This document shows positions 49,751-58,236 of a DNA stretch of 64,000 nt, piece after piece. The notes under the pieces were generated by a model. That model was not told the DNA's origin, did no database searches, and saw only the letters and a program-made list of their open reading frames with translations. The number at the start of each line of letters is the position of its first letter. The first letter of the stretch is position 1. Both the position numbers and the translations under genes were made by a program. The stretch is from Hydra vulgaris (taxonomy: Eukaryota > Cnidaria > Hydrozoa > Anthoathecata > Hydridae): contig NC_088921.1 of NCBI RefSeq assembly GCF_038396675.1, positions 25,581,001 through 25,645,000 of the forward strand, in the 5' to 3' direction.

Positions 49751-50447
49751 GAAAGGAGTGCTGCTACATTGACTGAGGGTTTTGGTTTGGGCAGGCAATC
49801 TATCAATTTCAAAGCAATATTATTTTGAAAATTTTATTTTTTGCGGGAGATTTTTTTCTAGAACCACGTCATGTACGCAAATTAATTTTTTAGCATGTTA
49901 TCATCAGTAATAAAAACGATGGCATTCACAGTGTTATAAAATGGGTTCTAACCTTGACTTTCTGACCCGAGAAAACCCTTTTGTGGAATGATAGCCCACA
50001 CTATGGGGATCACTTGGATGTAAGTATTAAAATCAGATTACAACGTCCTGGCAAGTTATTGATGTTTAAATTTTCTGAATTTATTGATTACACACACACT
50101 CGAAATGACAGCTTGTTTTGCATTTTTACAGTAAGATATAATTTTAAATTCAAGTAAACAAACATACTGTAGCATAAAGAGCATTATGTTTTATGAAAAC
50201 ATAAAAAAAAGTTGAAAAATTAAAAGATATCAAGAAGGTAAGCTTCCTTTATTACCAAACAAATATAATATTTTTTTATTCTTCTGTTTTTCTGTTTAAC
50301 TTTTCATAAAAATTATTTTTAACTGTGAAAATAAGACAGTTTTTGAATTTCGGGAAAATTTCGGGAAAATAAAAATTTCGGGAAAAGGCATGATTTATTT
50401 ACTTTATTCACGAGAGCAAAACTGCGCACATCTAATTTTACAAAAAA

Positions 50448-52494
50448 ATGCCAAATACAGCAAAAAACCACCAAGACTGCAGGAAAACTGTCTGTTTTCT
50501 TTGCTTCAGTAAATGTCAGAGGGAACTGACACCTTTCCTAAAAGAAAAATGCCAAACAATACTCAATGAGAGGATCGATTTTAGTAATGACAAAGTTCCA
50601 CTTGGAATTTGTGAAAAGTGTCGTTCTTGTTTAAGAAGAAAGGATTCTGGAGAACACATCAATCTCCCATCACTTTACAATTTTGAGGCTATAAAAATTC
50701 GACCTCAAACTAGAGACACACAATGTCACTGTTTGATTTGTTCTGTTGGAAAACTGAGAAATAATGGTCAGCAGAAAACTCAGCTTTTGCAGAGCTCAGC
50801 ACAAAATACTCTTTCTTCAACTGTCCAAAAACAATGCTCTGACTGTTTTTCAATTATTGGAAGAGGATTACCTCATCATTGCACAAAGGGCACTTTGCGA
50901 AATAACCTTGTTGCTGTTGCAACCAAGGATCCTGTTGCATCTGAACGAGTTGCTGCTCTTGTTGTTTCAAGTAAGGATTCTTCTCCACATGGCACTGTTC
51001 GATTGAGTCAACCACAAGGTGGAAGAATGCTTCCAATAATGCCAGGTAAAAGTTTAACTTTCATGAAAAGATATTTTAGAAATTTCGAAATTAAACAATA
51101 TCTGCATTTATTTTAGGTTCCTCATCAGCTAGAAAACTGTTTCCTCCAAACCCATCAATTAGTATAAAAGAACTTGTTCAAGTTCAGGCAAACACAGGGC
51201 TTTCAAACAGTGGCATCAAGAGACTAGCTGCTACAATTAATCAGTCAACTTCACAACGTATTGTTGAGAAAAACTATGCTGTAAAATTTGATGCAGTTAG
51301 TAAGCAGCTTTCTCACCATTTCGCGAGTTCATTGATTAAAGATCATGCTGGATGTGGAAGGACTGTCATTCATTGCAAGGACTTCAAAGAGCTTAAAAAT
51401 GAACTCATTTCTATGAGAAGCACATCAAACAATCATATTGTGAAAGTTGGAATTGACGGTGGGGGAGGATTTCTGAAAGTAAGCCTTGGAATTATTGAAT
51501 TAAATCGTGAACCTAACACTCCCCCAGCAAAACTCAATTGCACAAACAAGTTTTTCAAGGACACTGGAGTTAAGCGGCAACTTATTATTGCTGTCTCTGA
51601 GGACCTGCAAGAAAACTACTCAAATGTGTCTCAAATTTTCGAATTGATCAATATGAGAGACCAAGATTTTGTTTTGTCCTGTGACCTAAAACTGGCAAAT
51701 ATAATTTGTGGTCTCCAAGCACACTCAAGTGCACACCCCTGCACCTGGTGTGAGTCAAGTGCAAAGGACCTTTTAAATCAAGGAAATTAAGAACTTTCCA
51801 ATCTCTTGATCAGAATGTCTCACTTTTCAATGCAGCAGGATCAAACATCAAAAGAGCTCGTGATTACATGAATGTTGTTCATTCTCCTGTATTTGATCTT
51901 GCTGGTGGCACATTAGTTTTGGACTTCATACCACCAATGGAGTTGCATCTCCTTATTGGTGTTTTCAATCATCTCTTTGCTGCCCTACTAAAAGTTTTCC
52001 CTCAAGGAACTCTTTGGACTGATTCACCGCACATTAAACAACAGCCTTATCATGGAGGGCATTTTGCAGGAAATGAGTGCAGGAAGCTGCTAAAAAATAT
52101 TGATCTTCTTCAATCTATTGTCGAGAAACACTCATGCTATGCTGCAATATCATTAGGTAATGTATTTCGAAAATTCAATGCAGTAGTGTCTGCCTGTTTT
52201 GGATGCGTTCTTGATCCAAGTTATGTACAAAAAATTGAAGCTTTCAGAGTGGCTTATGTGGCACTGCAAAATGTTTCTGTGACACCCAAGGTTCATGCTG
52301 TATTTTTTCTTGTGAAAGATTTCATTGACAAACACGACCAAGCTCTCGGACTTTACTCAGAACAAGCAACAGAGGCAATGCATCACAACTTTCAAGTGCA
52401 TTGGCAAAGGTACAAACGACCTAACCATCATCCTGAATACAGTAAAAAGTTGCAATGCTGCCTTGTGGACTTTAATAGTAAACATTGCTTGTGA
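50448..52494 (+). CDS. Chapaev-like DDE transposase, two exons, one frameshift
   Basis: Exon 1 is 50448-51045 (donor G|GTAAAA, phase 1). Exon 2 is 51117-52494 (acceptor TTTTAG). The N-terminus is a Cys-rich zinc domain (VCFLCFSKC, then LGICEKCRSCL about 40 residues on), followed by CHCLIC and a CSDC...HHC pair. It resembles the N-terminal zinc region shared by Chapaev transposases and RAG1. The catalytic core shows VKVGIDGGGGFLKVSLGI (Asp near residue 313), LQAHSSAHPCTWCE, LVLDFIPPMELHLLIG, GHFAGNECRKLL and LGLYSEQATEAMHH. The last piece probably carries the catalytic Glu. Near 51770-51790 the frame changes by one base in an A-run (LLNQGN then stop; the other frame continues LRTFQSLDQNVSLF). 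As it stands the protein is interrupted after about 424 residues. This could be a real mutation or a sequencing error. Confidence 0.8.
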
Positions 52495-52707
52495 AAAGAG
52501 CCATTTTAGAATGACTTTTTCTTGTATTAGAATATTTATTTTAAAGCATAATTTTCATTTTAGATACACGATAAACTCTCAGAATATGTCTTTTTGTTTC
52601 CCTAGTTCATATTTATTGGAATAACCTATATTTTGTACTATATTCTGTCGGTTTTTGACGGAAAACTCGAAAATTATGGTTTATGTCGGTTAAAACTAAA
52701 ATTTGGC

Positions 52708-52710
<3 letters not shown>

Positions 52711-52739
<29 letters not shown>
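52711..52739. repeat. A homopolymer tract
   Basis: An A-run within the Chapaev-like element, followed by a C-run at 52772-52787. Confidence 0.9.
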
Positions 52740-52743
<4 letters not shown>

Positions 52744-53027
52744 GTTGGTAAAATTTGTTTTTTTCATTTTCACCCCCCCCCCCCCCTACGTCTTTGTCGT
52801 TCGGTACGGCCCTGTCAATAACTTGCCAGGACGTTGTAATCTGATTTTAATACTTATATCCAAGTGATCCCCATAGTGTGGGCTATCATTCTACAAAAGG
52901 GTTTTCTCGGGTCAGAAAGTCAAGGTTAGAACCCATTTTATAACACTGTGCATTATTAAAGACGGAAATGTGTTGATTGTTTTTAAAAACTAGATTACTT
53001 TAAAACATTAATTACTCCCTTTCTTCC

Positions 53028-53190
53028 GACTTGCATTCAACGTAAAGAATAATTAAAAAATTATTATGTTATATTTTATTTAAAAAATATATAAAATTTT
53101 ATTTAAAAAATATATAAAATTTTATTTAAAAAATAAAAAAATTAACAACTAAATTTTTTTTTCAATAATTCTTTACGTTGAATGCAAATC
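53028..53190. mobile_element. Small AT-rich foldback MITE
   Basis: Arms TTGCATTCAACGTAAAGAAT (53031-53050) and ATTCTTTACGTTGAATGCAA (53168-53187) are inverted. Between them are three tandem copies of an ATTTAAAAAATATATAAAAT unit. Target duplication not determined. Confidence 0.65.
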
Positions 53191-53831
53191 GTAACAGAAT
53201 TTTGGAACGGAAAGAGTTTCATAAAGCAATCTTTGTATTTTAAAACTCGTATGACTTTTTTCATTTTTAGACTTAAAACTTGTATGACTTCTAATTTTTT
53301 TTTTCAAATGCTCATGTTTTAAAAATAAAAATGTTTATTGCGAACCAACTGTTTTCAACTATATACATTTTAAACCTTTTTGGGTTATTTTTGCCGTATC
53401 GGATATTATAAATTTAAGAGAAGTTAAGGAAGAAACCCCCTCTAATTTTAAAATCAATTTTTAGAAAAAAAAAAATTTGTCAGATCAATAGCATATATAA
53501 AAAAAATAAGAAAAAAGTACAAAAAAAAAATAGAATGGTAACATGTTGCTATGGAAACCATACAAAATTACCAAAAAACAGCAAATACAGGTTTCACGCC
53601 GGCCAATATTGTGGGCAGGGAGCAAAACAACCCTAGTTGAAATTTTTATATGGTGTTTATATAGAGTAGAAGAGTGTTGTAAGTTGAACAGAATTTTATA
53701 ATTAATATAAAATTAGCAATATTCAATAATATGGAACTAAAACAGCATAAACAGCTGATGTAAAAAAAAAAAAAAAAAACTATTCAACTTAAAACACTCT
53801 ATACCAGTTAATAAACAACCACTGAAAAATT

Positions 53832-55000
53832 TTAGAAATGGCTCTTGAATGGACCTGGACCCGGTTTGTAAGTATTGGTTTTATTTGCTTTATCAAAGTT
53901 GAACTTGCACCAACTATTGATGTCAGTAGGACAGTGAGGAAAGTGCAAGTTATTTGTTTTGGAAGATGCAACATGAAATAATGTAGCCAATACGCTTGCC
54001 TTCATACCTGCTAAGTTTCCAGCATTTTGCCTAATAGCAACACCAAAGAAATTTTGCAGACGATCGATTACTGCATCTGTAAGACAATCACGCCCACCAA
54101 GACTTTTTTCTTTTTTCTTTAAATTTCGTAGTCGTGTACCAACACGTTTTTGATAGTGTCCCACACATTCTAACTTATTAACTTGAATGCCAGGGTAAGT
54201 ATCTATGCATTAATGAAACTTTTACTGTCCCCGTCTCCTAAAAAATTCACATATCGCAGTTTGTACTTGTCAATAGATTTTAAAAACACACGTTTTGCAC
54301 CAGTGCTCTCCATACCACTTGCAGATCCTTTGTAATTGTATTTAAAAATATGAGAGTTCTTTCATTGGGCATAGGCTGTAGGGTTTGTTTTTAAAAGATC
54401 TTTCTTTAAAAAGCAACCTTTGCAGAACCTGCACATTGGTTCGACATTCAAAACCTTTCCAGTGTCCATTGATAATGCAGAAAAGACACTGTTTAATGAT
54501 GTAAAGCCTCTTCTCTGCCAAGTACCATCACACGACACACCAATATCAAAAACTTCATCATTAGCAACATGTTTATGCAATTCTCCTATTTTCACAGCTA
54601 ACTTATCATAATTATTTTGAGTCATTGGTTGTGGCATATTTATTAAAGTAGTGAATATTTTTATACCAGAATGTCCCTGTCCAAGTGCACGCATTGCGTA
54701 AATTGTTCTACAATTAATATCATATCCTCTGTTACATTGTTTTGAAGTATAAAACTCATTTTCATATGAGGCAAGTCCTTTTTTGTCTTGCATTTTTTCG
54801 GACAATGACAAAGATGAACACTCGCCACATTGAGGGCATACTAAAGCACTAAATATGTCAGATAATATAGAGCAATCTATAATCCTATATCCAGATATTT
54901 TTATTCTTGTAAAACCTCTGGAACATTCAATTGGCTTTACCTTCTTTGCAGCTGGATAAGTAAAGAAGCCAAACCAAGCATTTTACTGCAGCTATTTAAA
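53832..55000 (-). pseudogene. Dead Mutator-like transposase
   Basis: Minus strand, two open pieces and broken links. CSLSEKMQ-like zinc region near 54820 (VCPQCGECSS), KQCNRGYDINCRTIYAMRAL, and MPQPMTQNNYDKLAVKIGEL. VFDIGVSCDGTWQRRGFTSL is the first catalytic Asp block. LGDGDSKSF lies near 54215, and VGHYQKRVGTRLRNLKK, LTDAVIDRLQNFFGVAIRQN, LATLFHVASSK and YKPGPGP end the region. This is the order of the Mutator-like transposase family common in arthropods and Hydra. Two frame changes lie near 54165-54360 and upstream of 54811. Confidence 0.85.

Positions 55001-56676: not shown

Positions 56677-58236
<1,560 letters not shown>

Follow-up and report, generated by a model that had tools for sequence, protein, structure and literature searches.

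We asked what kind of mobile element lies at this locus of Hydra vulgaris, whether its family can still move, and how the transposase it encodes relates to RAG1. The window, by which we mean the whole 64-kb stretch of DNA that was analysed, has a G+C content of 28%. A preliminary description of the element had reported terminal inverted repeats (TIRs) of 136 nt with two mismatches and CATT on both flanks, and we found these again at the same positions. The features that we could place are collected in Table 1.

Table 1. Features of the element in the window; residue numbers refer to the unbroken copy L034.
Feature	Position	Strand	Basis or remark
Left target-site duplication, CATT	49923..49926	.	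read directly
Left TIR, 136 bp, start CACAGTG	49927..50062	+	sequence, genome copies
Exon 1, Cys-rich N-terminus	50448..51045	+	predicted; open frames, splice signals
Intron, GT..AG	51046..51116	+	predicted; GT in 30/30 copies, AG in 28/30
Exon 2, catalytic core, one frame change inside	51117..52494	+	predicted; open frames, splice signals
First catalytic Asp, D313	51455..51457	+	predicted; invariant in 7 cores
Second catalytic Asp, D389	51683..51685	+	predicted; invariant in 7 cores
CxxC zinc ligands, C408 and C411	51740..51751	+	predicted; 19 and 22 residues past D389
Frame-change region	51780..51790	+	private to window copy among 30
HxxxxH zinc ligands, H593 and H598	52294..52311	+	predicted; second His is Leu in window copy
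Catalytic Glu, E619	52372..52374	+	predicted; invariant in 7 cores
Right TIR, 136 bp	52815..52950	-	sequence
Right target-site duplication, CATT	52951..52954	.	read directly

We searched the host genome (911,502,276 bases in 15 contigs) for further copies, as the preliminary description had recommended. The TIR yielded 235 first-look candidates, and every one of the 40 that were scored matches at 99-100%. The coding stretch yielded 488; among the 40 scored, 37 are full-length and one is two bases short (95-100% identity, window copy counted in), and the last two span 1-1448 only. Since copies of both the TIR and the coding stretch occur across the genome, the element is not a product of chance. 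No other copy was found within the window at E 1e-3. Three other elements lie to its right: (i) a short inverted-repeat element at 53024-53194, about 70 bp from the transposon, with arms of 37 nt that are 89% complementary; (ii) a Mutator-like transposase (PF20700) split between two open pieces at 53832-54982 (-); and (iii) an uninterrupted Tc1-type transposase frame of 342 residues (HTH_Tnp_Tc3_2, DDE_3) at 56952-57977 (+).

For all comparisons within the family we used the 30 best-scoring copies (L031-L060, of which L031 is the window copy). In 25 of them both ends could be located, and 24 were testable once a copy with withheld letters at one end had been left out. A perfect 4-bp duplication, varied in sequence, flanks 22 of these 24, the window copy included; of the remaining two, one has a perfect 5-bp duplication and one has no perfect duplication. 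As a control, mispaired left and right flanks were compared, and 6 of 552 such combinations agree. The heptamer CACAGTG stands at 45 of the 48 ends and CAC at 46. CACAGTG is also the consensus RSS heptamer (PMC9723617), and the full start of the TIR, CACAGTGTT, appears in the upper part of Table 1 of that paper, among the top-quartile spacers. Because a CAC start is already known for Chapaev ends, as a passage of PMC4079192 states, the coincidence with the RSS heptamer comes down to four further letters only.

The two-exon transposase frame with a single frame change, as first described, was recovered, and the change falls in an A-rich run near 51.78 kb. Copies free of it had also been suggested as a check, and the other 29 copies of the sample all lack it. 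The frame change had been taken for the sole lesion, which it is not: Leu at 52309-52311 replaces a predicted zinc-ligand His that is present in 7 of 7 aligned cores from this family and its sisters, the window copy being outside that set. The frame is without a stop in five of the 30 copies, two of which also keep GT-AG and show no length change, giving a clean frame of 658 residues; the other 25 have at least one stop in frame. A second long frame inside the element was looked for and not found.

A protein search of the host genome gave 96 matches from 92 of the 8101 candidates scored and brought up sister families, with 22 matches at 51-54% identity that are nearly full length, 15 of them without a stop. 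In one sister copy, L073, exon 1 (L073:277-690, -) and the core (L073:1279-2664, +) lie on opposite strands, an apparent inversion inside the element. We aligned two cores from the element's own family, other than the window copy, with five from sister families. Seven residues, the D, D, E and C, C, H, H listed in Table 1, are invariant in all seven. Their local spacing resembles that of mouse RAG1, for which a passage of PMC4914335 gives D600, D708 and E962 together with C727, C730, H937 and H942. C727 and C730 follow D708 at the same distances as C408 and C411 follow D389 here; the His pair of RAG1 stands 25 and 20 residues before its Glu, whereas H593 and H598 stand 26 and 21 ahead of E619. 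The ordered pattern D-x18-CxxC plus HxxxxH-x19-21-E was reached in a fraction of 0.0002 of 20000 core shuffles, a figure that serves as a guide rather than a test, the pattern having been chosen with RAG1 in mind after the sequence had been viewed. We regard the invariance as the stronger evidence that these are the predicted catalytic and zinc-binding residues.

Direct searches did not connect the core to RAG1. Pfam and PDB searches with the core, whether as a single sequence or as a profile, gave no significant match and did not retrieve RAG1; the best Pfam score, to DUF1280 in two sister copies, was below threshold (15.3 bits vs 25). The RAG1 core model PF12940 had no hit in the unbroken copy even at E values as high as 10. 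In the host genome the same model was found at 68 places (68 of 130 candidates scored), and none of those listed coincides, compared by eye, with the family's loci. Three PF12940 loci that we fetched carry the model at 2e-8 to 4e-12, and the PDB hits of L085 include entry 6pqn, which we take to be the Transib transposase (1.7e-21), one chain of RAG1L (4e-9) and chains of RAG1.

Profile-profile comparison was more informative. Aligned by hhalign to four Hydra Transib-type cores, the seven-core profile scored 39.7 (E 4e-4, probability 34%), a score that none of 400 column shuffles reached (best 28.4); control comparisons gave 15.4 with P-like cores, 14.0 with Tc1 and 15.8 with the reversed profile. 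The alignment sets C408, C411, H593, H598 and E619 onto the Transib-type CxxC, HxxxxH and Glu, and D313 lies outside the aligned range. In L085 the Asp aligned to D389 precedes the CxxC by 15 residues, and the Asp with RAG1-like spacing stands three residues further towards the N-terminus. The partner of D389 in the Transib-type core appears ambiguous, and for this reason our confidence in the Chapaev reading is slightly lowered. Judged by motif and profile, the transposase appears to be remotely related to RAG1, the recombinase by which antibody genes are put together.

With these results we conclude that this Hydra vulgaris element is very probably a cut-and-paste DNA transposon of Chapaev type (CMC group), present here as a decayed copy. 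The preliminary description had named the same superfamily, and the 4-bp duplications, the CAC/GTG ends and the predicted DDE-type core with RAG1-type zinc ligands agree with it. Chapaev, placed in the CMC group (Kapitonov and Jurka 2007, as cited in passages of PMC4079192 and PMC4411706), is described in the same two sources as having CAC ends and target-site duplications of 3 to 4 bp, and it has in common with our element the 4-bp duplications, CAC..GTG ends, a DDE-type core and a Cys-rich N-terminus. The assignment is one by features (duplication length, CAC ends, and a DDE core recognised by motif, invariance and profile alignment). Hydra magnipapillata appears in a tree legend of PMC4411706. 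Chapaev3, of the same superfamily and with CAC ends like those found here, was considered and rejected: a passage of PMC4079192 gives it 3-bp TWA duplications, whereas those of our family are 4 bp long and varied.

A Transib or RAG-like transposon would share with the element the terminal heptamer CACAGTG, the order and local spacing of D, C, C, H, H and E, a core that aligns with ours by profile, and the 5-bp duplication seen in one of the 24 testable copies. We consider this identification very improbable. Transib and RAG1 make 5-bp duplications, whereas 22 of the 24 are 4 bp long; PF12940, found elsewhere in this genome, is missing from the family's loci as listed and from the unbroken copy; and the element has neither a second long frame nor an RSS nonamer 12 or 23 bp in (6 and 7 of 9 positions mismatched, respectively). 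Under the Chapaev reading, we propose that unbroken copies would express the two-exon gene as a 658-residue transposase, whose Cys-rich N-terminus, probably zinc-binding, may bind the TIRs. Like the cores of Transib and RAG1, its core would adopt an RNase-H-like D,D,E fold, with the CxxC/HxxxxH zinc site as a brace. A cut adjoining CACAGTG at each end would excise the element, and insertion through a 4-bp staggered cut would leave the CATT repeat. The window copy is unable to make the enzyme and could be mobile only with transposase supplied by another copy.

The preliminary description had taken the element for young and had expected active relatives elsewhere in the genome. Relatives there are, by the hundreds of first-look candidates; activity is another matter. 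The coding sequences of L052 and L053 are identical, and L052 was dropped from the divergence set. These two are oppositely oriented, roughly 8 kb from each other, and share 99.9% identity over 3731 bases; because the identity continues beyond the element, they seem to represent a single insertion carried by a segment that was duplicated in inverted orientation, or else an assembly artefact. Pairwise difference among the other 29 copies averages 1.57% (smallest 0.81%, largest 2.48%). They carry 364 variants seen once and 42 that are shared; the once-seen variants are spread over all codon positions (136:130:98) and comprise 296 non-synonymous and 68 synonymous changes, about 3:1 being expected without selection. 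For these best-scoring copies the history is a star, that is, one past burst followed by neutral decay, a pattern that argues against current activity within this set. A family that still moves, with the frame change as an assembly error, seems to us unlikely, if somewhat less so than a Transib identity. The change does fall where the sequence is rich in A, no other copy of the sample shares it, and two copies retain a clean frame with GT-AG. Against this stand the second lesion at the predicted zinc ligand, the stops in 25 of the 30 copies, and a minimum distance of 0.8% among the 29, the one identical pair being the duplicated segment. Searches reaching close relatives only found none in viral contigs or prokaryote genomes, and none was found among phages.

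We turned to the N-terminus, which the preliminary description had likened to the zinc region of RAG1. Exon 1 of L034 contains CxxC pairs at residues 16/19, 55/58, 95/98 and 130/133, followed by H143 and C145; nine Cys/His from residue 55 on are invariant in seven rows, three of which are partial at the start. In passages of the literature, the zinc-binding CND of RAG1 is given conserved Cys at 110/113, 175/178 and 210/213 (PMC3124419), and the Chapa zinc-finger domain of Chapaev is described as common to the RAG1 N-terminus (PMC4411706). Direct searches did not bear the likeness out: neither PF12560 (the Pfam RAG1 N-terminal model) nor PDB gave a match with window pieces, the unbroken copy or profiles, and exon 1 was absent among the matches listed for an HMM built from seven RAG1-N-type domains, all of which were shuffles. 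AlphaFold gave no confident fold for exon 1 (pLDDT 37), and we noticed no RING pattern in it. Profile-profile comparison was modestly favourable. Set against seven PF12560-type domains from Hydra by hhalign, the profile scored 26.7 over its first 110 columns (E 4e-4, probability 35%), which none of 500 shuffles reached (best 22.7) and which compares with 10.5 for the reversed profile. Against the four domains linked to P-like cores (L070 being judged P-like by eye) the score was 31.6 (probability 66%), and against the three non-P-linked domains 20.9.

The best Pfam score for the N-terminus was to zf-AD (ZAD, PF07776), in one sister copy (18.9 bits vs a cut-off of 28). Two CxxC pairs of this model align over the start of exon 1, and it stays below the Pfam cut-off both in the scanned proteins and at all 146 places listed in the host genome. 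Of 33 zf-AD rows picked by eye, six overlap PF12560 places and four lie just upstream of Chapaev-type cores. There is nearly an even chance that the module is a generic zinc finger whose likeness to RAG1 arose by convergence. The failed PF12560, PDB and HMM searches, the sub-threshold zf-AD score and the low score against the non-P-linked domains all point that way; the score above every shuffle and the higher one for the P-linked subset point to kinship. A relation between this N-terminus and the RAG1 N-terminal domain is plausible but unproven.

PF12560 is by itself common in this genome: scoring 137 of 219 candidates gave 145 matches, the best at 46 bits (cut-off 23.3), and by eye none of the matches listed falls at the loci of the element's family. 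In a single 617-residue frame at L061:216-2066 (-), PF12560 (1.4e-10) occurs together with the TNP-like RNase H domain PF21787 (9e-23), which we take to mark a P-element-like transposase, and the same pair of domains recurs at L062:415-2499 (-) and L065:215-1801 (+). Copies of the L061 coding stretch lie on several chromosomes, and one of them, on a different chromosome, is 100% identical (rounded) over 1851 bases. In that pair homology continues for at least 865 bases further, to the edges of the two fetched copies, and a segmental duplication could be its source.

A literature search found no published report of a RAG1 N-terminal domain fused to a P-element-like transposase, and a passage of PMC4411706 states that Chapa and RING domains occur in no other known transposable elements. 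We tentatively suggest, at somewhat less than even odds, that this one Hydra genome holds a RAG1-N-type module ahead of two unrelated cores, in diverged form on Chapaev and in clear form on P-element-like transposases. If so, the RAG1 N-terminus would be an exchangeable DNA-binding transposon cassette rather than a sign of Chapaev/Transib descent alone, and its presence on P-like transposases would bear on how RAG1 gained it. The element itself is ordinary in kind and useful in detail. It adds, for a cnidarian kept in the laboratory, a Chapaev family of multiple copies whose ends can be read, and it connects Chapaev cores with Transib/RAG1 cores at the level of motifs; the fusion of PF12560 to P-like transposases is the more surprising observation. 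Three further loci, L066:167-1159 (+), L067:319-1011 (-) and L072:382-954 (-), carry a RAG1-N-type Cys module, a RING-like Cys/His pattern (recognised by eye), or both.
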